Assembly: GCA_022771695.1 (NCBI GenBank)
Contig: JALEKJ010000032.1
Coordinates: 1-32,404 of the forward strand
Origin: Roseburia sp.
Lineage (GTDB): Bacteria > Bacillota > Clostridia > Lachnospirales > Lachnospiraceae
Length of the DNA stretch: 32,404 nucleotides
Direction: 5' to 3'
The notes under the pieces were generated by a model. That model worked only from the letters and a program-made list of their open reading frames with translations, did no database searches and had not been told where the DNA came from. Position 1 is the first letter of the stretch. Each line of letters starts with the position of its first letter. Below are positions 1 through 22,117 of the stretch, piece by piece. The translations under genes were made by a program, and so were the position numbers.

Positions 1-881
1 TCTAATTTCTGATATATTTTCCGTTGCAGCCTTCTCGCATTTTCTGCAAACGCTTGTCTTTCTAAGTAGGTATAATCTGCGCTGATTCCTGTCGCCTGAT
101 TAGACATGGAGCGATTCCCGTCACCTCTTGCGTCCACTGCCATGCCAATGCAGTGGTGCTCTTTATTTGCCCGTAAAAATGCCGTAGCTATATAACTGTT
201 CACGGATACCCCCGCCTTCCTTGCACGTGCTTTCAGCTCCATTACTTCCTTCGCCGAAAAGGATTCATATAGAATCCGTGAACTGTATTCCCGCCAATAA
301 CTCGCATGAAGCGCCTCATAGTCCTCCCATGAAAAGCAACGTCCACTGCGTCTCCAGTTCCAATTAAAGGCTTTGGCATACCATTTAAAATATAGGGGTA
401 ATTTCGCTTCTCTCGGAAATGTTTGCTCCGTTATTAGTTGCATTTTCTTGTAAGTCAGCGTTTCCCCGGATAATGCCATCATAATATCCTCTAAAAGGTA
501 TGTTATAGACTTTCCGTCCCCTGCAAGATGATGTGCCATGATGAGAAGTTTCATATCTGCATCCGCCAGGCAGATAAATACCCGCACCAGCTCTCCCCTG
601 TTTAGCTGAAATGGTATCTTCTCATTTTCCCGAATAACAGTCTCCCAGTCATTTTCCGTAACCAATATCAGGCATCCTGATACATCCATTTTTTCATAAA
701 ATGCCGCTCCATCTTCCGTTAGTACTACACGGGACATCGTAGCCTCATGCGCTGCATAAGCAGCATTTACTGCCGCTTTTACATCTTTGATATCCGGATT
801 ACCGGTAAGCTGTACAAGAAATTCAATGTAAATATTCGGTTCAAATAAATCAATCCGTTCTGAACGTATCAGGTTCTTCAT
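1..881 (-). CDS. Condensation-domain/acyltransferase-like protein (HHxxxDG), 3' end outside window
   Basis: The reading frame starts at ATG 881-879 and runs open through the window edge, giving 293 residues. Its ribosome binding site is GGAGAAG at 884-890. Residues 117-123 read HHLAGDG, the HHxxxDG active-site motif of the chloramphenicol acetyltransferase/condensation-domain superfamily, which includes NRPS condensation domains, PapA5 and alcohol acetyltransferases. In that superfamily the second His promotes acyl transfer to a hydroxyl or amine. No carrier-protein or adenylation domain is seen in the visible part, so a stand-alone acyltransferase is likelier than an NRPS module. The start lies 10 bp after the stop of the upstream dehydrogenase, so it is the third gene of the TetR operon. 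Substrate is unknown. The family call rests on one motif plus the overall N-terminal layout. Confidence 0.72.
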   Translation of the reverse strand, partial: MKNLIRSERIDLFEPNIYIEFLVQLTGNPDIKDVKAAVNAAYAAHEATMSRVVLTEDGAAFYEKMDVSGCLILVTENDWETVIRENEKIPFQLNRGELVRVFICLADADMKLLIMAHHLAGDGKSITYLLEDIMMALSGETLTYKKMQLITEQTFPREAKLPLYFKWYAKAFNWNWRRSGRCFSWEDYEALHASYWREYSSRILYESFSAKEVMELKARARKAGVSVNSYIATAFLRANKEHHCIGMAVDARGDGNRSMSNQATGISADYTYLERQAFAENARRLQRKIYQKL

Positions 882-891
882 AACTTCTCCT

Positions 892-1656
892 CTATTCACC
901 ATATCTTTCCAGTTTCTTCATCCATGTCCACATTGCCATCTTCTGGGAACATATTTTTGAAAGTACATGCTCAAACCTGAAGTAAAATGAGCAGACAGAC
1001 ATGTCCTTCCCCTTTCTGGCATCCTTCAATGCGACACGCGCCACACGCTCCGCACTCACCATTCCGGTGAATCGAACTGTTTTTCCGTTTATTTCCCTGA
1101 GCAAAAGCTCGGTGTCAACCCAACCCGGACATACCGCCGTGACCGTAATTTTGCTTTTCTTCAATTCTACATTCAAGGCACGGGAATAGTTTCTTATAAA
1201 AACCTTTGTCGCCGCATAGAGGTTCAAATACGGCAGCGGTTGAAACGCAGAAGATGATGATAGATTTAATATTCTGCTTCCTGCTCTCATATATGGTATA
1301 CACATCGTGCACAGACTTACTGTCGCACTGCAGTGAATGCGTATTGTCTCCTCGACCTCCTCTACAGAAAATTCATCATAGGAGCCCATTTTGGCAATCC
1401 CGGCATTGTTGACCAAATACACAACGTCCCCTTCTATCTCCTTAAGCATTTTCCCCAATGCACAGATATCTTCCGTCCTTGTCAAATCTTTTGCTATGGG
1501 AATAATTTTATCCCCCAACTCCTCACGCAGCATCTGAAGTTTTTCCATATTTCTTGCGATTGCCCAGACTTCGTCTACTTCCTCACGTATATATCTGCAA
1601 AACTCCTTACCGATTCCTCCGCTGGCTCCTGTTATAATTGCAATTCTCTTTTTCAT
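892..1656 (-). CDS. Short-chain dehydrogenase/reductase (SDR)
   Basis: This 254-aa protein is a classical SDR: an NAD(P)-dependent oxidoreductase with a Rossmann fold. Seen in the sequence are the TGASGGIG cofactor loop (residues 9-16), the structural NNAG motif (83-86), a Ser-rich strand end at 132-136 that supplies the catalytic Ser, and the YxxxK pair (Y147, K151). PGWVDT at 177-182 follows the family pattern after the active site. Length is typical. The ribosome binding site AAAGGG lies inside the last codons of the upstream tetR gene, so the two are probably translationally coupled. Arg34/Arg35-region chemistry hints at NADP(H) but does not prove it. The substrate is unknown; with the downstream HHxxxDG protein it may make or modify a lipid or small metabolite (inference). 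Confidence 0.88.
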   Translation of the reverse strand: MKKRIAIITGASGGIGKEFCRYIREEVDEVWAIARNMEKLQMLREELGDKIIPIAKDLTRTEDICALGKMLKEIEGDVVYLVNNAGIAKMGSYDEFSVEEVEETIRIHCSATVSLCTMCIPYMRAGSRILNLSSSSAFQPLPYLNLYAATKVFIRNYSRALNVELKKSKITVTAVCPGWVDTELLLREINGKTVRFTGMVSAERVARVALKDARKGKDMSVCSFYFRFEHVLSKICSQKMAMWTWMKKLERYGE

Positions 1657-1662
1657 AATTTT

Positions 1663-2271
1663 CTACCCTTTCTTTTCTCTCAATACGGTTCTTTCTAAAT
1701 CTGCTGCATCAATCATCTCATATTTGGTCGTAAACAACTTTTTGAGGGAATACAGATACACCACGCCCCAATAATAGTCTGCAAGCTTTAACGGTGCACC
1801 CTCGACCACACTTCCTTCCTTTTGCCCCTGAGAAAGAATCTTTGCCGTGTACTTATATAATTCAGACTGATAGGTTGTCCCTTCGGACGCATAGCTTTTG
1901 TCCTGTTCTAAGAGCATCTGTGTGTTCAATGCAATCATTCCGGCAAAGTTCTCATCCTCTTTTAACTGCCTCATTACCGTATCCGTCAACTTATGTATCT
2001 TCTTCTCCGCAGATAACGGTAACGATGCCAACAGTTTTAACTGTTTGATATCTTCTTCCCGATTTATCATCTTTTGAATCTCTAAAAACAATTCCTCTTT
2101 GGAATCGAAATATACATATATCGTCCCCTGCCCGATTCCTATATGCTTCGCAAGGTCACTGATTTTCGTACCTGCAAATCCATTCCTCGCAAAATATAAC
2201 ATTGACTCATGCAATATCTTGTTGCGCATCTCATTTCTTATTTCCTCACAACGTTCCTGTGACTTTGGCAT
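1663..2271 (-). CDS. TetR/AcrR family transcriptional regulator
   Basis: This 202-aa protein has the N-terminal TetR helix-turn-helix: residues about 30-60 include KISDLAKHIGIGQGTIYVYF, with the conserved G-T-I-Y-x-Y-F at the recognition helix end. The rest is a variable all-helical ligand-binding and dimerisation domain. It is first in an operon with an SDR and an acyltransferase-like gene. A 30-bp inverted repeat sits directly between its promoter and its start codon, so it very probably represses its own operon and is relieved by an unknown ligand. Start ATG 2271-2269 is preceded by AAAAGGAGAA at a good distance. The effector cannot be told from sequence. Confidence 0.92.
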   Translation of the reverse strand: MPKSQERCEEIRNEMRNKILHESMLYFARNGFAGTKISDLAKHIGIGQGTIYVYFDSKEELFLEIQKMINREEDIKQLKLLASLPLSAEKKIHKLTDTVMRQLKEDENFAGMIALNTQMLLEQDKSYASEGTTYQSELYKYTAKILSQGQKEGSVVEGAPLKLADYYWGVVYLYSLKKLFTTKYEMIDAADLERTVLREKKG

Positions 2272-2282
2272 ATTCTTCTCCT

Positions 2283-2312
2283 TTTATGAATGAATTTTTA
2301 TTCATTCATAAA
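2283..2312. promoter_or_regulatory. Probable TetR operator (inverted repeat)
   Basis: Perfect 13-bp arms TTTATGAATGAAT (2283-2295) and ATTCATTCATAAA (2300-2312) flank a TTTT spacer. The core TGAATGA/TCATTCA resembles many TetR-family operators. It touches the last base of the -10 box and covers the transcription start and the region just before the regulator's ribosome binding site, the classical place for autorepression. Confidence 0.82.
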
Positions 2313-2340
2313 TAATAAAATATTTTCTCTATCTTGTCAA
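2312..2340 (-). promoter_or_regulatory. Sigma-A promoter of the TetR-SDR-acyltransferase operon
   Basis: On the minus strand TTGACA (2340-2335) and TATTAT (2317-2312) are separated by exactly 17 bp. This is a near-consensus housekeeping promoter about 40 bp from the TetR start codon, directly followed by the inverted-repeat operator. Confidence 0.85.
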
Positions 2341-2367
2341 GTTACTGCTGCTTACTCTTGACAACAG

Positions 2368-2414
2368 AAAAGGAGCTGCGTTCCGACATTTTTCTGTCGG
2401 AGCACAACTCCTTT
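2368..2414 (-). terminator. Rho-independent terminator after hypA
   Basis: On the minus strand a long stem pairs AAGGAG plus TGCTCCGACA with TGTCGGAACGCA plus CTCCTT, with an AAAAA-rich loop, followed by TTTTC. It lies 18 bp after the hypA stop and ends the hyp operon. The plus strand also has a T-rich run after the stem (2411-2417), but no plus-strand gene precedes it. Confidence 0.8.
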
Positions 2415-2431
2415 TTTCTTAACACCGGCGC

Positions 2432-2776
2432 CTAACATGCCTCAATTTCTTTGATATTACACTCATTACCCGCAAGCAGATACGTCTCCTCGCTGCCACA
2501 GTGTGGACATATTCTGCCGTGTGCAACTGTTGGATAAGTCTTCTTGCAAGCCTCGCAGAACGTTGTCGCCGGTAGTATTTCAATCCTCATCTCGGCTTCT
2601 GCCATCAGCGGATTTTTCTTTCGATAATAATCCCAACATTCTGTCAGATAATCCGGCACAATGCCGCTGACCTCACCGATTTCCAAGGTGACGGAACCGA
2701 TTTTCTCCAACTCATTTTCGACAGCAATATCATCCAAAGTTTTAGCAATATGGATAATGATTCCTAATTCATGCAT
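2432..2776 (-). CDS. hypA: Nickel metallochaperone HypA
   Basis: This 114-aa protein has the HypA layout. It starts with Met-His-Glu, where His2 and the N-terminal amine bind nickel. It has a zinc domain of two Cys pairs, CEAC (about residues 73-76) and CPHC (about 90-93). HypA delivers nickel, with the GTPase HypB, to nickel enzymes such as [NiFe]-hydrogenases. The start ATG 2776-2774 has GAGG six bases upstream; choosing it is required because His2 must follow Met1. It is the last gene of the hypB-oxidoreductase-hypA operon, 11 bp after the oxidoreductase stop, and is followed by a terminator. No [NiFe]-hydrogenase or hypCDEF genes are in the window, so its client is unknown. Confidence 0.94.
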   Translation of the reverse strand: MHELGIIIHIAKTLDDIAVENELEKIGSVTLEIGEVSGIVPDYLTECWDYYRKKNPLMAEAEMRIEILPATTFCEACKKTYPTVAHGRICPHCGSEETYLLAGNECNIKEIEAC

Positions 2777-2787
2777 AGATAACCTCG

Positions 2788-5502
2788 TTATTTCTTGTTT
2801 TTCTTAATCTTAATCTGACGCTTCAATGCATATGGTGCAATCGCTTTCAGTTTGTCCTCGGACTTCCACATACGGCTTGCATCCGGAAGGTCTCTGGTCA
2901 GATGAATTGCATCAAATTCGCACTTTGTTGTACATACGCCACAGCCGATACACTTGTTCTCATCGACTACCGTAGCACCACATCCGAGACATCTCTTTGC
3001 CTCAGTCTGAATCTGCTCTTCGGTTAAAGTGCTACGCAGATCGCGGAAGGTTTCCTTTGCCACGCCCGCCTTCTTGCCCGGAATCTGACGTTTTGCATTA
3101 TCAAATGTCTCTACATTGATGTTGTTCTTATCCAATTCAATAAACTGTCTGCGGTTACGTGCCAGCGTCAGACTGTGTCCCTTATTCACAAAACGATGGA
3201 TAGACACGAATCCTTCTTTTCCTGCCGCGATTGCATCAATTGCAAAACGTGGTCCGGTGTACACGTCACCACCAACAAAAATATCCGGCTCTGCTGTCTG
3301 ATAGGTTACCGGGTCTGCCTTTAAGGTTCCGTTGCCGTTAACCTCTGCCTTGGTTCCCTTTAACAGGTCTCCCCATACGATAGACTGACCAATGGATAAA
3401 AGAACATTCTCACATTCCACTGTCACTGTGTCATTCTCATCATACTGCGGATTGAAACGTCCGTCCGCATCCTTTACGGAAGTACATTTCTTGAAGACAA
3501 TTCCTGTCACCTTTCCATTCTCTGTCAGGATTTCTTTCGGTCCCCAGGAATTGTTTACCGCGATACCTTCCTCTTCTGCCTCTTCCACTTCATCCTTTGC
3601 TGCCGGCATGATATCACGGGATTCCAGGCAGTACATGGATACCTCGCTCGCTCCTGCACGAAGTGCGGTTCTGGCAACATCGACTGCCACATTACCGCCA
3701 CCAACTACTACAGTGCGTCCTGAAAGCTTTGTGTTCTCTTCATCTAAGTTTACTGCTTTTAAGAACTCGACACCGGTTACAACACCGTCTGCATCCTCTC
3801 CCGGAACACCAGTCTTACGACCGCCCTGTGCACCAATCGCAACATAAAATGCCTGATAACCTTCCTCGCGAAGCTGCTGGATGGTAACATCGCATCCAAC
3901 CTCAACACCACATTTAAACTCTACCCCCATCTGACGCAATACATCAATCTCTGCATCAATGACATTCTTCTCGAGACGGAAGGATGGAATACCATTCATC
4001 AACATACCGCCCGGACGCTTTTCTTTTTCAAATACGGTAACCGGATATCCCATTTTTCTTAAATAGAATGCTGCGGACATACCGGCAGGGCCCGCTCCGA
4101 TAACAGCAATCTTCTGTGGAAGTTCTTTCCCGATTCCGCGCTGATTAATGATTTCCGGAATATAGCGCTTTTCAGCATGAAGTTCCTGCTCAGCAATGAA
4201 CTTCTTGATTTCATCAATGGCAACAGCCTCATCGATAGTTCCTCGCGTACAAGCATCTTCACAGCGGCGGTTACAGATGGCACCACAGACTGCCGGGAAC
4301 GGATTCTCTGTCTTAATTAACTTTAAGGCATCCATATATCTGCCCTCTGCCGCCATCTTCACATAACCCTGTACCGGAAGATGTGCCGGACACGCTGTTT
4401 TACATGGTGCTGTACCTGTCTCATAGCAGTTAATCTGATTATCGTCACGATAGTTCGGATTCCACTTCTCTTTGCTCCACTTCACTGCATCCGGGAGCTC
4501 CTGCTTTGGATATGTAATCGCGCCCTCTTTCGTACAAAGCTTCTGACCAAGTTTTGCCGCACCGGTCGGACAATACTCTACGCAGCGACCACAAGCCACG
4601 CAGTTCTCAGTCGTTACATGCGCGCGATATGCAGAACGGGACATGTTTGGTGTATTAAAGAGCTGAGAGGTGCGAAGCGCGTTACAGACACCCACCGCAC
4701 AGTTACAGATAGCAAAAATCTTATCCTCCCCGTCAATGTTGGTAATCTGATGCACATATCCCATCTTCTCACCGCGCTCTAAGATTTCCATAACCTCATC
4801 AAGTTCAACATAACGTCCTTTTCCGGTCTCTACCAGATAGTCAGCCATGTCACCGACGCCGATACACCATTCGCCTTCAAGGTCTCCGGTTCCTTCCCCG
4901 CGCACTCTCTGCTGGGTACGGCAGGAGCACTGCCCTACCGCATATTTGTCCTTGTATTTATTCAACCAGTAAGAAATATGCTCTACGCTTGCGGATTCCT
5001 GTGTTGCCGGAATTGCCTTTTCCACCGGAATGACATGCATTCCGATTCCGGCGCCGCCAAGCGGAACCATCGGAGTTACCTTCTCAAGCGGAAGTCTTGA
5101 CATATGCTCAAAGAAGTCCGCAATTTCAGGATGCTCCTCCACCTGTTTCGTGTTCATAACCATGAACTCTGCGCATCCCGGCACATACATCGGAAGCACA
5201 TACTGTTTCTCATGCTGTGGATTCTCCCAGTTATACTCAATCAGACCAATAACCGACATCTCCTGAAGCAGTTGCTCCAGTTCTGCCTCCGGCTTTCCGG
5301 TCTTCTTTGCCAGTTTCGGTAAAGTAATCGGCTTGCGCACATCCATGCAGAGGGCAACCTCCACCATCTCATCATTAATGACGTTCGCCATTCCCCAAAA
5401 CTCCGGATCATTTTCCGTCAGTTTTTCCATTCCCAGCTTATAAGGAATACGGTCTGTAATTTTTTTTCCGAGCTTCAATAATGCTTCTTTGTTCTCTACC
5501 AT
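2788..5502 (-). CDS. Large iron-sulfur/FAD pyridine-nucleotide oxidoreductase (GltD-like core)
   Basis: This 904-aa protein combines several modules. Residues about 1-110 contain a winged-helix-like stretch (LPKLAKKTGKPEAELEQLL). Residues about 190-275 have clustered cysteines (CSC at 192-194, C213, CNC at 266-268, C273). Ferredoxin-type CVACGRCVEYCP sits at 301-312. The Fer4_20 domain typical of glutamate synthase small subunit (GltD) runs from about 367 to 420, with cysteines at 367, 371, 406, 410, 414 and 418. An FAD-binding GAGPAGMSAA is at 469-478, an NAD(P)-binding GGGNVAVDVA at 601-610, and further cysteines with CIGCGVCTTKC lie at 838-861. It likely shuttles electrons between NAD(P)H and a low-potential partner. 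It sits between hypB and hypA, so it may serve a nickel enzyme. Start ATG has GAGGAG about 11 bases upstream. The exact reaction is unknown. Confidence 0.85.
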   Translation of the reverse strand: MVENKEALLKLGKKITDRIPYKLGMEKLTENDPEFWGMANVINDEMVEVALCMDVRKPITLPKLAKKTGKPEAELEQLLQEMSVIGLIEYNWENPQHEKQYVLPMYVPGCAEFMVMNTKQVEEHPEIADFFEHMSRLPLEKVTPMVPLGGAGIGMHVIPVEKAIPATQESASVEHISYWLNKYKDKYAVGQCSCRTQQRVRGEGTGDLEGEWCIGVGDMADYLVETGKGRYVELDEVMEILERGEKMGYVHQITNIDGEDKIFAICNCAVGVCNALRTSQLFNTPNMSRSAYRAHVTTENCVACGRCVEYCPTGAAKLGQKLCTKEGAITYPKQELPDAVKWSKEKWNPNYRDDNQINCYETGTAPCKTACPAHLPVQGYVKMAAEGRYMDALKLIKTENPFPAVCGAICNRRCEDACTRGTIDEAVAIDEIKKFIAEQELHAEKRYIPEIINQRGIGKELPQKIAVIGAGPAGMSAAFYLRKMGYPVTVFEKEKRPGGMLMNGIPSFRLEKNVIDAEIDVLRQMGVEFKCGVEVGCDVTIQQLREEGYQAFYVAIGAQGGRKTGVPGEDADGVVTGVEFLKAVNLDEENTKLSGRTVVVGGGNVAVDVARTALRAGASEVSMYCLESRDIMPAAKDEVEEAEEEGIAVNNSWGPKEILTENGKVTGIVFKKCTSVKDADGRFNPQYDENDTVTVECENVLLSIGQSIVWGDLLKGTKAEVNGNGTLKADPVTYQTAEPDIFVGGDVYTGPRFAIDAIAAGKEGFVSIHRFVNKGHSLTLARNRRQFIELDKNNINVETFDNAKRQIPGKKAGVAKETFRDLRSTLTEEQIQTEAKRCLGCGATVVDENKCIGCGVCTTKCEFDAIHLTRDLPDASRMWKSEDKLKAIAPYALKRQIKIKKNKK

Positions 5503-5523
5503 AACTAATAATCTCCTCTCAAA

Positions 5524-5537
5524 TCCGCCAAAGCGGA
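5524..5537. other. Small intercistronic hairpin between hypB and the oxidoreductase gene
   Basis: TCCGC (5524-5528), loop CAAA, GCGGA (5533-5537). It has flanking A/T pairs but no U-tract, so it is not a normal terminator. It may affect mRNA processing or stability between the two cistrons. Confidence 0.4.
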
Positions 5538-5579
5538 ATTTTCATATGTTTCTATATTGCCTTAATTCTTTGTAACACG

Positions 5580-6248
5580 TTACGCATTCCACTGTTTCAC
5601 TTCACTGCACAGCCAATCATACCACTCATCCATTCCTTCTCCGGTGCGGGAAGAAATCGGAATAATCCTGATATTCGGGTTCAGCTTCTTTACCCGCTCA
5701 CTGCAAGCTTCTATGTCAAAATCAAAATATGGAAGTACGTCTATCTTATTAATCAAAAGCACATCGCAGATAGAAAACATGAGCGGATATTTCAGCGGCT
5801 TGTCATCTCCTTCGGGAACGCTTAAAATCATCGCATTCTTCACGGAACCGGTATCAAACTCTGCCGGACAGACCAGGTTTCCAACATTCTCTAAAATTGC
5901 CAAATCCACATCCTTCGTCTCTAAGCTTTCCAATCCCTGTCTCGTCATATCCGCATCCAGATGGCACATACCACCCGTATGGATTTGAATTGCTTTGACG
6001 CCGGTCTTCGCAATCGTATCTGCATCGACATCGGAATCAATATCTGCCTCCATAACGCCAATCCGCATCTCATCCTTCAGTGCCTCTATCGTCCGAACCA
6101 GCGTAGTCGTCTTGCCGGAACCCGGTGAAGACATCAGATTCAAAAGAAATGTCCGGTTCTTCTTCAACTCTGCGCGCAGTAAATCTGCCTCGTGGTCATT
6201 ATCTTCCAGAATGTTCTTTTTGATTTCAATTACTTTGAATTCACTCAT
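5580..6248 (-). CDS. hypB: Hydrogenase/nickel-enzyme maturation GTPase HypB
   Basis: This 222-aa SIMIBI-class GTPase has the P-loop SSPGSGKTT (40-48) and an acidic switch (EADIDSDVDA). The metal-binding GMCHLDADM has C95 and H96, ENVGNLVCPAEFD has C127, and NKID (167-170) sets guanine specificity. These residues bind Ni or Zn at the dimer interface of HypB. It lacks the N-terminal His-rich stretch and CxxCGC motif found in some proteobacterial forms, as is common in Firmicutes. It is the first gene of a three-gene operon with the iron-sulfur flavoprotein and hypA. AAAGGGG seven bases upstream supports the start. A promoter with a NikR-like site precedes it, so nickel-dependent repression is plausible. 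Confidence 0.94.
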   Translation of the reverse strand: MSEFKVIEIKKNILEDNDHEADLLRAELKKNRTFLLNLMSSPGSGKTTTLVRTIEALKDEMRIGVMEADIDSDVDADTIAKTGVKAIQIHTGGMCHLDADMTRQGLESLETKDVDLAILENVGNLVCPAEFDTGSVKNAMILSVPEGDDKPLKYPLMFSICDVLLINKIDVLPYFDFDIEACSERVKKLNPNIRIIPISSRTGEGMDEWYDWLCSEVKQWNA

Positions 6249-13986: not shown

Positions 13987-14484
13987 TTATTTTATGGAGA
14001 AAGCGATGCCTTCTTTCTTGCCGTCTGAACGGTTTCTGTACAACACAATCTTCAGACTTCGTGGAATCAGCTCCTGTTGCCGCCGCTTTCCGTCACCGAA
14101 ACATGCAAAAAGCAGTACCGGCAAGAAAAGCAATCCTACCATTATGTACCAGACAAACAAACGAACTTGTTGCAGATTCCGATAGCGGAATGACGTGCGC
14201 CACTGCAGCATCTGGGCTCCTCTGAGCACATCATTTTCCCGTACCGCATATTGCAATTCATTGCTATGCATCGATGGTTTTGAAAGCGTCTGTATCGGTG
14301 TATCTGTCGATTGCTGTGTGTCAATCTGAACCCTAATATCATGTGCCGTTGGCATATCCCCAACCACGGCAAGTGGCAGTGTCACTGACAAAAGAAGCAG
14401 TATTGCAGCCAGCAAATAGCACCGACGCTTAAAACCAGTGTTTGATATTACTGATTGCTTTTGCTTTTGCAAATATCTCATCAT
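13987..14484 (-). CDS. Two-TM membrane protein of unknown function
   Basis: This 165-aa protein has a basic N-terminus (1-19), a first transmembrane segment (about 21-43), an outer region of about 60 residues rich in Gln, Thr and Ser, and a second transmembrane segment (about 106-130). A basic cytoplasmic tail follows. The first 56 bp overlap the end of the upstream 82-aa gene in another frame. GGAG seven bases before ATG 14484 supports this start. I do not recognise a family. Being seventh in the operon, it may anchor or report for the soluble ATPase/translation-factor products, but this is only context. Confidence 0.72.
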   Translation of the reverse strand: MMRYLQKQKQSVISNTGFKRRCYLLAAILLLLSVTLPLAVVGDMPTAHDIRVQIDTQQSTDTPIQTLSKPSMHSNELQYAVRENDVLRGAQMLQWRTSFRYRNLQQVRLFVWYIMVGLLFLPVLLFACFGDGKRRQQELIPRSLKIVLYRNRSDGKKEGIAFSIK

Positions 14485-14677
14485 TTTTCAGCTCCAAATA
14501 AAGTTCTAACCCTTTTATTTCTTCTTCCGAAAATCCTTGATTCTTTGTCACTTTGCACTCCGGCAGACTCGCTTCTGCAATATCATGCCCTCGCTCGAAT
14601 CGAACCAGCACATGACGTCGCCCTTTTTTTACAACAATACCGGAATGTGTGAGTCTCATTTCTTCCTCTATGTTCAT
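14429..14677 (-). CDS. 82-aa soluble protein of unknown function
   Basis: Start ATG 14677 is preferred over 14713: AAAGGAG lies eight to nine bases before it, and it leaves a 25-bp gap after the GTPase-nuclease stop. The protein (MNIEEEMRLTHSGIVVKKGR at the N-terminus) looks like a small beta-rich domain with a basic strand (KKGRRHVLVRFERG) followed by a helical C-terminal half (SEEEIKGLELYLELKNDEI). It has no transmembrane segment, Cys pair or known motif. The basic beta strand could bind nucleic acid or the ribosome (speculative). It is sixth in the operon and overlaps the next gene by 56 bp. Confidence 0.75.
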   Translation of the reverse strand: MNIEEEMRLTHSGIVVKKGRRHVLVRFERGHDIAEASLPECKVTKNQGFSEEEIKGLELYLELKNDEIFAKAKAISNIKHWF

Positions 14678-14702: not shown

Positions 14703-17456
14703 CTATGATTCATCGTCCACCTTGAATGAGTTCATGGTCTCTTCCGACAATCCATCCATGAGATAATTTCGGCTTTTTTCTTTACTTTCTTGATAGTTTT
14801 CCATCAACATTCTGCCGGCACGCACAACCTCTTCTTCAAATTCCCGCGCAGACAAAAGCTGACACCCTGATCCACGTATGATAATCTGTTCCAGCCCGTC
14901 AGAGGTTGCAACCGTGACATGATATTTTCGTCCGTGCTCCTTTGCAAACTTCTCGATATACTGATCTGCCGTCTCCGCTTCTCTCGTGTATACCACATGA
15001 ATATTGTGATAATCAAAAATTTCCGTCTTATGACCTACTACACGATATGCATCAAACACGACAATCAGCTTACACCTGCGGATGCCCTGATAATTACATA
15101 GAATATCTAAAAGCTTTCCACGCGCACCATCAATATTTTTCTGTGCAAGCTCTGCCAATTCCCTCCACGCAAAAATAATATTATAGCCGTCCACCAACAG
15201 GTATTCCTCCGCAGGCAGCTTTGTCTGATAATCTCTTGTCACTGCTGCCACAGCCGCTTTATCGCGTCCACGCAACTTAAATCTGTTCTTTGCAGGAACA
15301 GATTTATCCCTCTTATTTGCATTGTATGTCTGTGCTAAAATTCTGTCAATCTCCTCTGTGCCAATCCATGCCTCTTCTTCTCCATCCAAGCGCCCGCGCT
15401 TCGCTTCCGGTAATAGCTTCTCCGGCAAAAACGCTTCCTCCTCGTGCATGTTCTCCGACAGGCAGCTTGGCAGATGCATATATTCTGCCACACTGTCCCA
15501 AGGCACGATAAATCCGGCACCATGAGCACAAAAGACGGAATCCGGCGTATGTTCCATATCCCGTTCCGCTTCGTAGCCGATTGCAGCGACAACCTCCTCT
15601 GGATTATGGCAAGGCAAATAACCTTTATTCGTCACAGAAAGCCTTCCCTGTCCTTTTGTATAGGAAATGACCTCCTTTTGATAATTCTGCATGGTCGCTA
15701 CCGGCGCGCTTCCCGTCAGGCATCGCATGCCTTTCACTCCCCCTGCATTCTGTGCACTTTCCTCCCAGCCGGCATCATAATCCAAAGAACCATGCATGCG
15801 CTCGATATCCATCATTGCCCGGCCTACTGCATTCTCCGGCACTTCCAGAACAAAATCATAATACGGTTCCAATAAGACTGACTCTGCCTGCATCAAACCC
15901 TGACGCACGGCACGATAGGTCGCCTGCCGAAAATCGCCGCCCTCCGTATGCTTTAAATGCGCTTTTCCGGACACCAGTGTAATCTTCATATCCGTAATCG
16001 CAGATCCGGTAAGCACACCGATATGTTCACGCTCCTGCAAATGTGTTAAAATCAGACGCTGCCAGTTCTTATCAAGTACATCCTCGCTGCACTTTGCCGC
16101 AAACGTAAGTCCACTGCCATGCTCTCCCGGCTCCAGCAGAAGATGCACCTCCGCGTAGTGGCGCAACGGTTCAAAATGTCCAATCCCCTCCACCACATTC
16201 GCGATGGTCTCTTTATACACGACATGTCCCTCGCCAAATTCCACCTCAATGCCAAATCGCTCTTTTATCAGGCTCTTTAGCACCTCTGTCTGCACTTCTC
16301 CCATCATCTGTACCAGGATTTCACGAAGTCTTTCATCCCAGACAATATGAAGTTCCGGTTCTTCCTCCTCCAAAAGGCGCAGCTTTGGCAACATGATAGC
16401 TGCATCCAGCCCCTCCGGCAAAAGAATCTGATAGGTAAGAACCGGCTCTAATATCGGCATATCGGATGCCTGTTCACTGCCAAGGCCTTCTCCCGGATAA
16501 GTGTAAGAAAGCCCCGTAACGGCACACACAGCTCCTGCCGCAAGTTCATCTGTTGTCTCATATTTTTCTCCGGAATAAATGCGAATCTGGTTTACTTTTT
16601 CTTCCCAGTGCCGGTTCTCTTCCTCACCTGCCGCCACGCTCCTTTTCATACCGCGAAGTGCCTGCTTTACGATAAGGCTTCCCCCTGTAACTTTCAGATA
16701 CGTAAGCCTTGTTCCTTGCTCGTCCCGGGCAATTTTAAAGACCTTTGCACCAAATTCACTTGGGTACTCCGGCTCTCTTACATAGTTTACAAATGCCTCT
16801 AAAAACTCTGCAACGCCTTCCATCTTAAGCGCGGAACCGAAGAAACATGGAAACAGTCGCCGCCCCGCAATCAATCCCGCAATATCTCTTTCGTCTACAC
16901 TGCCATCCTTAAGATAACGCTCCAATACATTCTCATCGCACATGGCAATGCTCTCATAGAAATGCTCTGTATCTCTATCTGAGAAATCAATACAGTTCTC
17001 ATGCAGAATGCCCCGAAGTTCATCCAACAGCCGTTCCCTGTCCGTCCCCTCCTGATCCATCTTATTGACGAACAAAAATACCGGTATCTGATAATGTGCA
17101 AGCAATCTCCAGAGCGTCTTTGTATGCTCCTGCACTCCGTCTGCACCGCTTACGACCAGAATCGCATAATCCAGCACCTGTAAAACACGCTCCATCTCCG
17201 CTGAAAAATCCACATGACCAGGTGTATCTAAAAGCGTCAGCATAGCCCCCTGCAGCTTTATCACTGCCTGTTTGGAAAATATCGTGATTCCTCGCGCACG
17301 CTCCAAGGCATAGGTATCCAGGAAAGCATCTCCGTTGTCCACACGTCCTGCTTTCCGGATATTCCCGCTTAGATAAAGCATTGCCTCTGATAAAGTTGTC
17401 TTTCCGGCATCTACATGTGCCAGCACTGCCGTACAGATTTTTTTCTGATTACTCAC
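14703..17456 (-). CDS. TetM/EF-G-like translational GTPase fused to a YacP/Rae1-type NYN endonuclease domain
   Basis: This 917-aa protein starts with GTG 17456, using GGAAGAGAGA inside the end of the upstream ATPase gene. Residues 1-670 match ribosomal-protection/EF-G family factors: P-loop AHVDAGKTT (13-21), switch I ARGITIF (54-60), DTPGH (77-81), NKMD (131-134), then domains II-V. Residues about 750-885 are a YacP/Rae1-type NYN domain: VDGYNIIFAW (755-764), VVFDAY (799-804), EAETADQYIE (826-835) and ATSDGLEQ (850-857), with candidate metal ligands D756, N759, D802, E828, D831 and D853. Rae1 of Bacillus subtilis cleaves mRNA in the ribosomal A site, while TetM binds near the same site with GTP. 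A residue 690-745 linker joins the two. The likely role is GTP-dependent nuclease action or quality control on ribosomes (inference); tetracycline resistance is not implied. Confidence 0.88.
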   Translation of the reverse strand: MSNQKKICTAVLAHVDAGKTTLSEAMLYLSGNIRKAGRVDNGDAFLDTYALERARGITIFSKQAVIKLQGAMLTLLDTPGHVDFSAEMERVLQVLDYAILVVSGADGVQEHTKTLWRLLAHYQIPVFLFVNKMDQEGTDRERLLDELRGILHENCIDFSDRDTEHFYESIAMCDENVLERYLKDGSVDERDIAGLIAGRRLFPCFFGSALKMEGVAEFLEAFVNYVREPEYPSEFGAKVFKIARDEQGTRLTYLKVTGGSLIVKQALRGMKRSVAAGEEENRHWEEKVNQIRIYSGEKYETTDELAAGAVCAVTGLSYTYPGEGLGSEQASDMPILEPVLTYQILLPEGLDAAIMLPKLRLLEEEEPELHIVWDERLREILVQMMGEVQTEVLKSLIKERFGIEVEFGEGHVVYKETIANVVEGIGHFEPLRHYAEVHLLLEPGEHGSGLTFAAKCSEDVLDKNWQRLILTHLQEREHIGVLTGSAITDMKITLVSGKAHLKHTEGGDFRQATYRAVRQGLMQAESVLLEPYYDFVLEVPENAVGRAMMDIERMHGSLDYDAGWEESAQNAGGVKGMRCLTGSAPVATMQNYQKEVISYTKGQGRLSVTNKGYLPCHNPEEVVAAIGYEAERDMEHTPDSVFCAHGAGFIVPWDSVAEYMHLPSCLSENMHEEEAFLPEKLLPEAKRGRLDGEEEAWIGTEEIDRILAQTYNANKRDKSVPAKNRFKLRGRDKAAVAAVTRDYQTKLPAEEYLLVDGYNIIFAWRELAELAQKNIDGARGKLLDILCNYQGIRRCKLIVVFDAYRVVGHKTEIFDYHNIHVVYTREAETADQYIEKFAKEHGRKYHVTVATSDGLEQIIIRGSGCQLLSAREFEEEVVRAGRMLMENYQESKEKSRNYLMDGLSEETMNSFKVDDES

Positions 17457-17463
17457 GTTATTT

Positions 17464-19179
17464 TTATCTCTCTTCCTGTATCAATAACTTCCGGTATCGG
17501 TTGATGCATGCAAAAATTTCCTGACGCCTTGGCATCGCAAGTCCACACGGCAGATAGCTGCCCTCACAGACAGCCGCAAGTCCCTTTTTCTCTAACAGGC
17601 GCTCTAACTCATCCACGCTCTCCCTTAAGGTGCGTCTGCCGTCAAAAATATGCCCCTCAGCATATTTAAGCAAATATGCAAGCGCTGAAAGCTGCTCACT
17701 GTCTGCAAGCTGCTCCACATAGCGTACATCGATGTTTTCCCGATTAATCGAGATGCCATCTCTGCCCATCGTCTTTAGCTTCATACGGCTGTCCTCTTTA
17801 AATGCACGCTCCGGGCGGACGCGGCGTTCAAACGACGGCTTTGCCTGCTGTGGCGGCGTTGCCACCGGCATCGGGAAACGCTCTGCTTCTTTTTTGGCAA
17901 ACTCTGTAATCTCCACCGGTTCATACTGATTCATCTGAATGATGCAGTCCGCCTTATGGAAATAGGAACCGGAACTTCCCGCCACCAAAATTGTTGAAAT
18001 ACCAAAATTCTCATATAATTCCCGGATACGGTCAATAAACGGCGTAATCGGCTCATCCTCCCGATTCACCACGCGCTGCATCAATTCATCACGAATCATG
18101 AAATTCGTTGCGCTGGTATCTTCATCAATTAAAAATGTCTGTGTACCGGATTCCATCGCTTCCATGACGTTCGCTGCCTGCGAAGTACTTCCGCTCGCAT
18201 CCTCGGTACAGAAAGCTTTCGTGTCTTTCTTATTTGGAAGATTACTGATAAACATGGAAATATCCACGTTCTTGATACTTCTTCCATCCTCTGCACGAAT
18301 CTTCATCGCCGTGTCTTCCGTAATGACATACTCTCTGCCGTCTCCCGCAATGTGATTGTAGACACCCAATTCTAACGCCTTTAAAAGAGTAGACTTTCCA
18401 TGATAACCGCCGCCCACAATCAGCGTGATTCCCTTTCTGATTCCCATACCGCGAAGTGCTCCGCGATGCGGCAAAGGAATTGTAACCTCCAGTTCTTTTG
18501 GCGAAACAAACTTCACCGCATCCTTCATTGGTCTGCCGGACACACCGGATTCCCGTGGCAACACCGAATTGTTTGCCACAAACGCACATAAATCATGTTC
18601 TTTTATATATGCTCTGATTGCCTGCTGGTCCTCTGCCAAATCTGCGGCTTGCGCCACGGATTTCGCATCTAAAGCCGGATAGAACAGGCTCTTTGCCACA
18701 CATTTCGGCAAAAAGTCAAAAAAGATTTTCTCTAATTCTCTGGAATTTACGGTGCGTCCATTGGCAGGGAAGCCCACCTCAAAGCGCAGGATGATATCGC
18801 CATTCCTTTCATCCATCTGACATGCAGTGCGCTCCAGCACCTCCTGTCCCGGTCGGCTGACCGCCATAAGCCCGCTCTTGCCTGAACCTTTTGCCTGAAA
18901 AGATACCTTCTCCAATTCTCTGCCAAACTGCCTGAGCAGATAATCACTGAGCGCAACACGTCTGCATTTCATCTGATAATGCTCTGTCGGAAACTTTGCC
19001 GCGCTTCCCTTGATATGAACACTCACCTTTGATGGAGAAGCAAACGGGTCTCCCTGCACATGGTCGATAGAGAGCACATAATTTCCAAAATCATAGCTTC
19101 CTCTCGTATCCTTGTATGCCGGATATCCTTTATGGTCAATTTTCTGTAATAGATTCTTAAGTTCTGCCTGTGACTGCAT
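17464..19179 (-). CDS. ABC-class P-loop ATPase (PF09818-type)
   Basis: This protein belongs to the soluble ABC-ATPase group of unknown function. Counting from the upstream ATG at 19191, it has Walker A GGGYHGKST (260-268), a signature-like ASGSTSQA (332-339) and Walker B TFLIDEDTSATNF (352-364). SIDHVQGDPFASPS near the N-terminus is also typical. There is no transmembrane part, so it is not a transporter by itself. ATG 19179 is preferred because the first ATG sits one base after GAGG, while ATG 19179 has GGAAG five bases before it; 19191 remains possible. Its end overlaps the ribosome binding site of the GTPase-nuclease gene, seven bases apart, which suggests the two are made together. Its substrate is unknown; RNA or ribosome remodelling is a guess. 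Confidence 0.85.
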   Translation of the reverse strand: MQSQAELKNLLQKIDHKGYPAYKDTRGSYDFGNYVLSIDHVQGDPFASPSKVSVHIKGSAAKFPTEHYQMKCRRVALSDYLLRQFGRELEKVSFQAKGSGKSGLMAVSRPGQEVLERTACQMDERNGDIILRFEVGFPANGRTVNSRELEKIFFDFLPKCVAKSLFYPALDAKSVAQAADLAEDQQAIRAYIKEHDLCAFVANNSVLPRESGVSGRPMKDAVKFVSPKELEVTIPLPHRGALRGMGIRKGITLIVGGGYHGKSTLLKALELGVYNHIAGDGREYVITEDTAMKIRAEDGRSIKNVDISMFISNLPNKKDTKAFCTEDASGSTSQAANVMEAMESGTQTFLIDEDTSATNFMIRDELMQRVVNREDEPITPFIDRIRELYENFGISTILVAGSSGSYFHKADCIIQMNQYEPVEITEFAKKEAERFPMPVATPPQQAKPSFERRVRPERAFKEDSRMKLKTMGRDGISINRENIDVRYVEQLADSEQLSALAYLLKYAEGHIFDGRRTLRESVDELERLLEKKGLAAVCEGSYLPCGLAMPRRQEIFACINRYRKLLIQEER

Positions 19180-19209
19180 ATTTTCTTCCATCCTCGCTTT
19201 CTGTCAATG

Positions 19210-20733
19210 TTACATCTCGTCACGCGCCAATTCCGATAACAACTCTGTCTTTCTTGTTCCGACAAGAAGCTGCTCATTATACTGCTTATAACGCTCACAT
19301 GCATGCTCCGATAAAAACAGGGCAGACTCGCTGTTAATCGTGAGCTCTGTCACGAAAACGACCATCTCCTGTCCGTTCTCGAATGCCTGCTCCATAAAGT
19401 CGAATGCAAACTCTAACGCCTGCGCCGTTTCGGTCTCAAGCTGCGCTAATTTTTCTTTCTGTTCCTGAAATCCTGCACTTGCGCTCGTAAAACATGCCTG
19501 TGCAGTTATGTTGTTTTCTGCGGTTTCCACAGATTCTTCTGTCGACGGGCAATTTTCTCTCAACATTCCCAGCAGACGCTTCTGCAGGCGTTTCTCATCA
19601 TTGCTGTAGCTTCCGGTCTCCTCCGCCAACGCAAGCGCACGCTCCCGCTCCTCTAACTGCATACCATAAAGAGCAACCGGATTCTCCGCACTCTCTACAG
19701 CACCGCGATATTCTTTTAAAAATACAAACCATTCGTCCGTCAGATAACGTTCCTCTGCCGTCTGTCGGAATCGTGCATTCAATCCATCTAACAACAGATT
19801 CGTGACCGCAATCCGCTCATCGAATGCTGCTGCATAGACGCGTGCATAGACTGCCGGTTTCACTCTTCCTGCAAGAATTTCCGGAATGCCATAATCATCC
19901 TGATATTTCCGGTACAAATCAAAGTACGCCGCCGCATCCTCTGCGACCTCTGCGTGATGTAAGAACTCATGGATGACTGTCTCATCCACCGGAAGATTCA
20001 TCTCCTCATAAACGCTCATCAGATTTGACAAGTCCTCCCAGCCTCTCGCCGTTACAAACTGCATACCATCCACATCCGCTTCCACACGGTAAAAGTTACG
20101 CGGACGCAATTCCAAATAGCTTAAAATCGCTCCGTGAATATGCTGTGCTCTCGCATACTCCTTCCATACTTTAAAATCTGCTTCCACCGTCATGTAACGC
20201 ACACGGTCCAATGTCACCATATCAAAATCCCGCACGGACTTGTTGTACTCCGGCGGGTTTCCCGCTGCCACAATCAGCCATCCCTGCGGCACTGCCTGAT
20301 TTCCAAAGGTCTTGCACTGCAAAAATTGCAGCATTGTAGGTGCCAATGTCTCCGATACACAGTTAATTTCATCGATAAACAGAATTCCCTCTTTCTGTCC
20401 GCTGTCCCTGATTTTCCGATGCACGCTTGCGATAATCTCGCTCATCGTGTATTCCGTAACCGAATAGCACTTCCCGTCAAACTCCTCTTCCTTGATAAAC
20501 GGAAGTCCAACTGCACTCTGTCTCGTGTGATGCGTAATCGTATATGCCACCAGACCGATTCCCAGCTCTCTTGCAATCTGCTCCATAATCTGCGTCTTGC
20601 CGATTCCCGGCGGTCCCATTAAAAGCACCGGGCGCTGTCGGATTGCCGGAATCTTATATTCGCCGACCTCATTTTTTGCCAGATATGCCTGCACAGTATG
20701 CTTAATCTCGTTCTTAGCCTGCTTGATATTCAT
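19210..20733 (-). CDS. MoxR-type AAA+ ATPase
   Basis: Start ATG 20733 has GGAAGGAAATAG upstream and gives 507 residues; the 20757 start lacks a good site. Features are Walker A GPPGIGKT (40-47), Walker B LFIDEIN (118-124), sensor 1 AAGNPPE (156-162), and a long C-terminal helical region with heptad-like Glu/Ala-rich segments (about 400-450). MoxR ATPases work with VWA proteins as chaperones that insert metals or remodel complexes. Here the VWA partner lies directly upstream, 55 bp away. The C-terminal region is longer than in the minimal MoxR (about 330 aa) and may mediate contact with the other operon products. Confidence 0.9.
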   Translation of the reverse strand: MNIKQAKNEIKHTVQAYLAKNEVGEYKIPAIRQRPVLLMGPPGIGKTQIMEQIARELGIGLVAYTITHHTRQSAVGLPFIKEEEFDGKCYSVTEYTMSEIIASVHRKIRDSGQKEGILFIDEINCVSETLAPTMLQFLQCKTFGNQAVPQGWLIVAAGNPPEYNKSVRDFDMVTLDRVRYMTVEADFKVWKEYARAQHIHGAILSYLELRPRNFYRVEADVDGMQFVTARGWEDLSNLMSVYEEMNLPVDETVIHEFLHHAEVAEDAAAYFDLYRKYQDDYGIPEILAGRVKPAVYARVYAAAFDERIAVTNLLLDGLNARFRQTAEERYLTDEWFVFLKEYRGAVESAENPVALYGMQLEERERALALAEETGSYSNDEKRLQKRLLGMLRENCPSTEESVETAENNITAQACFTSASAGFQEQKEKLAQLETETAQALEFAFDFMEQAFENGQEMVVFVTELTINSESALFLSEHACERYKQYNEQLLVGTRKTELLSELARDEM

Positions 20734-20788
20734 CGTCTCTATTTCCTTCCATCGCAATATATGTTTCTGTCGCTTTACTTCTTAACTT

Positions 20789-22117
20789 TCAGTTTCCCGC
20801 CACTTCAAATTCCTCCGGCTCTAAGCGAAGCTGCATTGCCCAAGGGGGTACTGCGGCGTCCTCATACGCCTCCAAAAAAAGAAATGCCGTCTGATAATCC
20901 GGACGCTTTTTCGGATAAATTCCCTTCCCATCCGTAAAATACAAAAGTCCGTTCAGATTCAGAAGTTCGCCCCGTTCTCTTAATTCATTCACGTAGGCAA
21001 ACGTCGGTCGAAAGTCTGTGCCGCCACCGCCAATCAACTGAAACTCTGTCAAAAAGTGTTCTAATTCCCTTTCTCCGGTAATCCTTACATCACTGCGGAC
21101 AGCGTTGTCACATTGTAACACGCGGATGACAGAATCCGTAAAAAAGCTGTCGCTCTGCTTTAAGATATCCACCGTCTCTCTTAAAAATTGCTCTACCAAT
21201 CCACTGCTGGTGGAATAGCTAGTATCTATCACAATCACAAACTCCCTGATTTTCTTTGTCTCTCTGCTCTCAAGTGGCTCGATGAGCGGCATGTTGCCAT
21301 ACAGCTTTAGTCCATACGTATAATAATTCAAATCAAACTCATCCGGATCGCTGCGCAGTTCTTCTCTTCGCACTGCGAACCTCTTTAAAAAATCACGATA
21401 GCTACGCCTGCTGCGCTCTGCCGCAAACTGAGCTGAGAGAAGTTCCTCGCCCTCCTTTGTCTCATCCCCCCTGCGTTGCTGCTCCATGCGCGTCTGTCTG
21501 GCAATCTTATTCCATTTCTTCTGACTTGCCGCTGCTGCCTCCTGCTTCACATTGCCGTCCTGCTGCTTCGGCCAATATCTGTGGTCATCCGTGTAAAACT
21601 CCTGCTCTAACGCAGCAATCTGCTCTCGCCCGTTTTCTTCTGATTCCAGTTCGCGCAGCATCCGATAGATAACGGCAGCAGAAACACCCTCCTTCTTTTC
21701 TCGCAGTTGCTCATAGAGCTCCCTGCGCAAAAAGCTAAGAATACGTCTTGTGCACTTCTTGTCCATCCTATCAATCACATATTCCACGGCTATGTCGCAG
21801 GCAATATGCCAAAGCCGTCTGTCACGGTTCCCGCCAATCCACAGGTGGAAAAAAAGACAGTGTAACACAGTATGCAGGTACACACGGTTTAAGAAAAATG
21901 CATTCTGTCGAAACACACGAAGCACCTGCTCCGTCGAAAAGCAAAGCCAAGTTCCATCGGTCGCAAATGTCTGCACGGACGCGTCCGCTTTCGGCTTCAG
22001 CCCAGAAAGCGCTATGTCAAGGAAACGCAGTTCCAGATAAATTTCATTGCGGGTATAGTCAAGAATTTTCTCAGACATCTCGACTTCCCATTCTGTCTGT
22101 GTCTTCACATGTTCCAT
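20789..22117 (-). CDS. VWA-like protein with N-terminal metallopeptidase-like domain (DUF2201 type)
   Basis: This 442-aa protein starts after AAAGGAGGAG. The N-terminal domain holds HTVLHCLFFH (82-91), a HxxxH...H arrangement typical of the predicted metallopeptidase half of these proteins. A charged, flexible middle (about 190-240) follows. The C-terminal VWA-like domain carries a MIDAS site: DTSYS (298-302), GGTD (365-368) and TDG (395-397). The pairing of this architecture with a MoxR ATPase is a known bacterial chaperone arrangement. It likely recognises a target that the ATPase remodels. Whether the peptidase half is active is unclear, since the canonical HExxH glutamate is absent. Confidence 0.87.
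   Translation of the reverse strand: MEHVKTQTEWEVEMSEKILDYTRNEIYLELRFLDIALSGLKPKADASVQTFATDGTWLCFSTEQVLRVFRQNAFFLNRVYLHTVLHCLFFHLWIGGNRDRRLWHIACDIAVEYVIDRMDKKCTRRILSFLRRELYEQLREKKEGVSAAVIYRMLRELESEENGREQIAALEQEFYTDDHRYWPKQQDGNVKQEAAAASQKKWNKIARQTRMEQQRRGDETKEGEELLSAQFAAERSRRSYRDFLKRFAVRREELRSDPDEFDLNYYTYGLKLYGNMPLIEPLESRETKKIREFVIVIDTSYSTSSGLVEQFLRETVDILKQSDSFFTDSVIRVLQCDNAVRSDVRITGERELEHFLTEFQLIGGGGTDFRPTFAYVNELRERGELLNLNGLLYFTDGKGIYPKKRPDYQTAFLFLEAYEDAAVPPWAMQLRLEPEEFEVAGN

Follow-up and report, generated by a model that had tools for sequence, protein, structure and literature searches.

A Rae1-Type Nuclease Domain on a Tet-Related Translational GTPase Looks Like the Relocated Rae1 of a Roseburia Bacterium

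The window, a stretch of 32,404 nucleotides from a Roseburia sp. genome, encodes a protein in which a translational GTPase is joined to a Rae1-type nuclease domain. The fusion is real and widespread, and by sequence and gene order it looks like this bacterium's own Rae1, relocated from an ancestral slot between rlmB and sigH. Rae1 is one of the few bacterial enzymes known to cut mRNA inside the ribosome. Fusions of this kind have been published, and we would restate their meaning as a relocated Rae1 carried on a non-Tet translational GTPase.

Architecture and active sites of the fusion

The interval named in the original prediction, 14703..17456, was correct, and the gene itself lies on the minus strand; frame 1 of the plus strand over this interval is full of stops. 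The features are as follows.

17456-14703, minus strand: complete fusion gene starting with GTG and encoding 917 aa (ORF and Pfam)
16776..17432, minus strand: G domain, residues 9-227, with P-loop, RGITI, DTPGH and NKMD (Pfam GTP_EFTU and motif conservation)
16497..16754, minus strand: domain II, residues 235-320 (EF-G_D2 and EF-G fold)
16233..16448, minus strand: domain III, residues 337-408 (EFG_III)
15885..16229, minus strand: domain IV, residues 410-524 (EFG_IV)
15927..15971, minus strand: tip loop III of domain IV, residues 496-510, KHTEGGDF where Tet proteins have YSPVSTPADF (alignment and conservation)
15603..15878, minus strand: domain V, residues 527-618 (EFG_C)
15474..15602, minus strand: C-terminal extension, residues 619-661, SVFCxHGxGFxVxWxxxxxYMH (alignment and conservation)
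15207..15473, minus strand: low-confidence linker of about 90 aa, residues 662-750, with a predicted helix at 700-713 (AlphaFold and conservation)
14721..15200, minus strand: NYN_YacP/Rae1 nuclease domain, residues 753-912 (Pfam, PDB sequence, fold and conservation)
15191-15189, 15053-15051, 14966-14964 and 14900-14898, minus strand: conserved nuclease Asp codons

Pfam thus bore out the predicted order of intact GTPase motifs and domains II-V followed by a complete YacP-like NYN domain, with domain II below its cut-off (EF-G_D2, 20.0 bits against 27). Residues 1-632 of the fusion model, which include domain II, matched the EF-G fold. The linker is probably flexible, as its modelled pLDDT is below 50 at residues 662-702 and 712-746. 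The helix between these segments surrounds a conserved EExxxI, and in relatives the linker measures 63-147 aa. Among the best 120 relatives from a protein search, GTP_EFTU was present in all 120 and NYN_YacP in 119, the exception being the 780-aa P0059. Because nearly all of them carry both domains, the fusion is not a chance reading frame.

The claim that the C-terminal part is of the YacP/Rae1 type held by profile, by sequence and by fold. The fusion matched NYN_YacP (PF05991) at 177.3 bits against a cut-off of 24.6, and its C-terminal domain matched B. subtilis Rae1 (5mq8) among PDB sequences at E 5e-22. Since a fold search with the whole-protein model listed EF-G-type chains, the NYN part was folded separately. 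Residues 745-917 were modelled at pLDDT 87.6, with 5mq9 as the best fold match (TM 0.72/0.79, rmsd 1.7 Å). The domain shares with B. subtilis Rae1/YacP the fold, four conserved Asp residues and the VDGYN and TAD motifs. It differs in being fused to a GTPase, in lying away from the rlmB-sigH slot and in lacking the C-terminal tail motif. Two papers report mRNA cleavage by Rae1 in the ribosomal A site (PMC6613710, PMC12320835), and by analogy we infer that the domain is a Rae1-type, translation-dependent A-site mRNA endonuclease.

Conservation was examined across 216 distinct fused proteins, which reduce to 175 representatives when those sharing 90% identity or more are merged; 119 of the 216 came from the search with the window protein and are its close kin. 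D756, D802, D831 and D853 are identical in all 216, so the acidic residues originally singled out, D756 and D853, are real and invariant. The P-loop, NKxD and His81 are intact in the window protein. His81 is kept in 214 of the 215 fused proteins having a residue there, and Lys19 and Asp77 are invariant wherever present, with gaps at Lys19 in four rows (P0044 and P0045, which start late, L155 and L210). Because the four Asp residues are invariant and the GTPase motifs nearly always kept, both halves seem to be under selection, and both look active from these alignments.

Distribution, gene slot and neighbourhood

NYN_YacP was found once in the Roseburia genome, in the fusion. In the order cysS-mrnC-rlmB-[yacP]-sigH, the yacP slot of this genome is empty and a sigma-factor gene stands in the sigH place directly after rlmB. 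Thirteen separate Rae1 copies were inspected, six from the same family and seven from elsewhere: 12 lie beside rlmB, and 10 have sigH on the other side too, with an extra frame in between in one of these (G311).

In the family sample, NYN_YacP occurred in 110 of 120 genomes, fused in 104 and separate in 6; the 10 genomes without it all lacked the clade GTPase as well. The fused genomes comprise 99 recognised by a frame 848 aa or longer, counted by length and not by checking each GTPase singly, 4 with fragmentary genes and 1 with a shortened variant. The fusion is nearly always single-copy in the family. The class sample had NYN_YacP in 99 of 146 genomes (55 fused, 44 separate); among the fused cases, 50 are single frames no shorter than 850 aa, each of which matches the clade GTPase, and 5 are fragmentary. 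The phylum sample had it in 163 of 299 genomes, 18 of them fused. Across these three samples, which overlap in some genomes, no genome held both a fused and a complete separate Rae1. Four genomes needed individual reading: G322 has an extra NYN fragment at a contig end that cannot be classified as fused or separate, G393 a single frame matched as two pieces, G205 two separate Rae1 copies, and G516 a second NYN match under the cut-off. At locus L129 (G325), GTPase and NYN domain lie in two overlapping frames, reflecting a frameshift or an assembly error.

The surroundings of the fusion were not conserved. Among frames of at least 120 aa there was no recurrent neighbour, the largest cluster reaching 10 of 92 loci in mixed positions (2 of 94 loci were lost from this survey). 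Among small frames of 35-150 aa within 600 bases there was none either, the largest cluster reaching 2 of 94 loci. In neither set did a conserved neighbour indicate ribosome rescue. PADLOC gave no match for the fusion, and a role as toxin or mobile cargo was rejected on these grounds. The original 'toxin-like' suggestion likewise found no support: 104 of the 120 genomes in the family sample carry Rae1 in fused form, almost always in a single copy.

The next gene upstream (window 17464-19191, minus strand) encodes a predicted ATPase of the ABC_ATPase/MRB1590 type; a shared operon with it was rejected, as the two are adjacent in only 3 of 92 loci. Just past the fusion stop, an 82-aa frame (window 14429-14677, minus strand) has a ribosome-binding-site-like AAAGGAG before its ATG, and a longer 94-aa reading overlaps the fusion stop codon. 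The 82-aa frame had no Pfam match and no kin beside the fusion in 94 loci. Further along, window 19210-22117 (minus strand) encodes a MoxR-like AAA ATPase and a VWA (DUF2201) protein, a chaperone-like pair.

The GTPase half and its unfused sisters

The phylogeny of the GTPase half agreed with the earlier doubt that this is a true tetracycline-resistance protein. In a 40-row tree, fused and unfused members formed one clade (100/100), which adjoins a Tet clade (95/91) sampled with TetM/W/S/O and OtrA-like rows and without Tet(Q), Tet(B)P and Tet(T). EF-G lay outside both (100/100). This tree followed a 62-row quick tree, from which L123 (long branch), L114 and L115 and 19 of the 33 fused rows were removed. 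In the quick tree, L114 and L115, labelled 'tet', grouped with EF-G, and a same-family protein of G131 grouped with a named Butyrivibrio, which makes Lachnospiraceae the probable family.

Profile scores and motifs pointed the same way. The fusion scored 402.4 bits on tet_protect (NCBIfam), below the cut-off of 775 that a tet(M) control passed at 879.8, and 279.6 bits on the EF-G profile TIGR00484, under its cut-off of 659.4. TetO and TetM are the closest solved structures by sequence, and they share with the fusion a five-domain GTPase, about 30% identity and the His in DTPGH. They differ in tip loop III, where TetM, TetW, TetS and TetO all have YSPVSTPADF, whereas the fusion has KHTEGGDF; the fusion also carries the C-terminal extension and the nuclease domain and belongs to a separate clade. 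The form HT[E/D]GGDF occurs in 28 of 33 fused rows, or 29 if Q is allowed. The SVFCxHGxGF...W...YMH extension is common to fused and unfused clade members and absent from the Tet rows shown. In four genomes (G131, G065, G451 and G530) the fusion occurs together with a Tet-type gene of 643-644 aa at 31-33% identity. By sequence, the fusion GTPase is outside the sampled Tet resistance clade and is not a resistance protein.

An annotation correction would follow, since some fusions are filed as tetracycline-resistance genes. The expectation that annotation would name them so held for Agathobacter rectalis, P0071 and P0101, and failed for Monoglobus and P0150 ('translation factor GTPase family protein'). 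Atkinson 2015 (PMC4342817) describes 'Tet' proteins that carry a YacP-like NYN domain in ten species of Clostridiales, suggests a possible resistance role for them, cites a maturation idea for NYN domains, and describes Tet loops that contact and dislodge tetracycline. The novelty attached to the fusion itself thus did not survive. The published proteins have the same architecture, a Tet/EF-G-like GTPase with a YacP-like NYN domain, and were called Tet proteins, whereas here the GTPase is placed apart from the Tet clade as sampled, and the NYN domain attached to it appears to be a relocated Rae1. The Rae1 work of Leroy in 2017 reportedly came later than that description. The literature searched held no mention of a sole Rae1 with an empty slot, of the non-Tet placement or of the fully invariant Asp residues; other Rae1 papers may discuss fusions.

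Unfused clade GTPases were present in 15 sampled genomes: 4 from the family sample (G368 truncated), 3 from the phylum sample and 8 from the class sample, these last placed by identity (44-48%) and not by tree, with G539 in two pieces. G525 (37% identity, separate Rae1) was excluded as unplaced. Eleven of the 15 have a separate Rae1 and 4 have no NYN_YacP (G438, G462, G440 and G475, the last scored negative by absence from the class-sample NYN positives). Strict dependence of the GTPase on Rae1 was rejected on this count, and because unfused members occur without any Rae1, the clade GTPase has some function of its own. These sisters (about 650-670 aa, among them L068 and L104; also L117) share the clade, the C-terminal extension and an HTxGGD-type tip loop; they differ in having no Rae1 domain, some in hosts without Rae1 altogether. 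L117, at 4010-5929 of a Ligilactobacillus salivarius megaplasmid, adjoins a plasmid-borne rpsN, is annotated as tetracycline resistance and is 49% identical to the window GTPase. Two unannotated 'Bacteriophage sp.' gut records, MT835563.1 (L212) and MT835514.1, also encode clade GTPases (59% and 53% identity) and are possibly bacterial DNA filed as phage.

The two halves gave different pictures of how the fusion arose. The GTPase tree placed the unfused L. salivarius member together with the fused rows in one clade (100/99), and a tree with a clade of fused rows only was not rejected (AU p 0.175). In the NYN tree, the fused rows needed 3 changes, and none of the 200 bootstrap trees united them in a single clade; the starred branches force only 1 change, and the long-branched G268 domain falls among separate copies (86/80). 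A single fusion event thus has no support from the NYN tree and is compatible with the GTPase tree. The placement of the L. salivarius member suggests either transfer followed by nuclease loss or a branch predating the fusion.

Mechanism and competing explanations

Separate Rae1 proteins usually end in a C-terminal tail with a motif such as EKWRR, and this end is often changed in fusions. In the class sample, the NYN HMM match reached no further than position 155 in 32 of the 55 fused and 0 of the 44 separate proteins (Fisher p 2e-11, from counts made by hand and a test that ignores kinship). In a larger comparison, in which the fused set was weighted to close kin of the window protein, 4 separate and 1 fused rows were unparsed and 7 loci were set aside as fusion pieces, tails shorter than 36 residues were found in 45 of 232 fused and 0 of 60 separate proteins, and a loose hydrophobic-Arg tail pattern in 52 of 232 and 46 of 60, respectively. 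About 22 of the 52 fused matches looked genuine by eye, so the tail was not lost everywhere. PMC6613710 reports R166P in the B. subtilis Rae1 tail as a selected mutation classed by its authors as loss of function; from the Rae1 alignment and the PDB title W164L, R166 would fall within the tail motif. The shortened or altered tails fit a takeover of ribosome docking by the GTPase, which we infer for many lineages.

One variant departs further from the common plan. The 680-aa frame of L074 (G398; 763-2802, minus strand) has a G domain, a II/III-like region, the linker helix and the NYN domain, with no Pfam match to EFG_IV or EFG_C, as though the place of domain IV could be filled by Rae1. The same protein recurs in the database under P0121, where 4 sequences from 2 contigs cluster together; a single assembly may have been deposited more than once. 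Both EFG_IV and EFG_C are present in each of the remaining 119 relatives listed, which makes the variant a single lineage.

We give an even chance to the reading that the fusion is a GTPase-guided A-site mRNA endonuclease, with docking handed to the attached EF-G-like GTPase. In its GTP form, the GTPase would bind at the factor site when a ribosome has paused and its A site is open, and domain IV would enter that A site. GTP hydrolysis would pull domain IV back, the tethered Rae1 domain would take its place and cut the A-site mRNA, and tmRNA, whose gene is present in the genome, could then rescue the truncated complex. Such a cycle would have to be sequential because the single A site could not take domain IV and Rae1 at once. 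Counting against this reading are the 4 genomes with an unfused clade GTPase and no Rae1, the fusions that retain a Rae1-like tail, the restriction of the IV/V-less variant to one lineage, the NYN tree, and the lack of a conserved neighbour indicating ribosome rescue. A-site cleavage is here extrapolated from what Rae1 does in B. subtilis, the sequence of steps and any link between hydrolysis and cleavage are presumptive, and GTP-driven delivery of the nuclease is plausible.

The main rival to GTP-timed cleavage is that two independent activities share one chain, the fusion fixing a 1:1 ratio and keeping both near ribosomes; the factor half would be Tet/EF-G-like with its own translation role, and Rae1 would act as in B. 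subtilis. We regard this as possible but rather doubtful. It would accommodate the long, low-confidence linker, the unfused sisters whose genomes have no Rae1 (4 of 15), and the separate-Rae1 genomes that often lack the clade GTPase (G302, for example). It sits less well with retention of the fusion by 104 of the 120 family genomes and by members of several further families, with the lack of a complete separate Rae1 beside the fusion in any sampled genome, and with the many shortened or altered Rae1 tails.

That the protein confers tetracycline resistance with an added RNase aiding it, as in Atkinson 2015, is very improbable. TetO and TetM as closest solved structures and the public names of some relatives speak for it, but the GTPase falls outside the sampled Tet clade and far below the tet_protect cut-off that tet(M) passes, lacks the YSPVS tip loop, is single-copy in most family genomes and coexists with a Tet-type gene in four. 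We also consider it very improbable that the fusion brings to ribosomes an enzyme that processes rRNA or tRNA, as was proposed earlier for NYN domains. Separate copies do mostly adjoin rlmB, which encodes an rRNA methylase, and many lie near mrnC, whose product is RNase III-like; the maturation idea is also cited in Atkinson 2015 (PMC4342817). Against this, the domain is closest to Rae1, the A-site mRNA cleaver reported in PMC6613710 and PMC12320835.

Extended to the host family, probably Lachnospiraceae, GTPase-guided cleavage becomes more tentative, and we hold the following somewhat short of even. Across the greater part of this family and many further Clostridia, free Rae1 would have been replaced by a GTP-driven version, in which a Tet-sister subfamily loads Rae1 into paused ribosomes and Rae1 and domain IV alternate in the A site; one lineage without domains IV and V would keep Rae1 on a G/II/III body. 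If true, a translational GTPase would here have the cutting of mRNA as its end result. As the sole Rae1 in most sampled genomes of the family, the Rae1-GTPase fusion offers a direct handle on how the nuclease is admitted to the A site.
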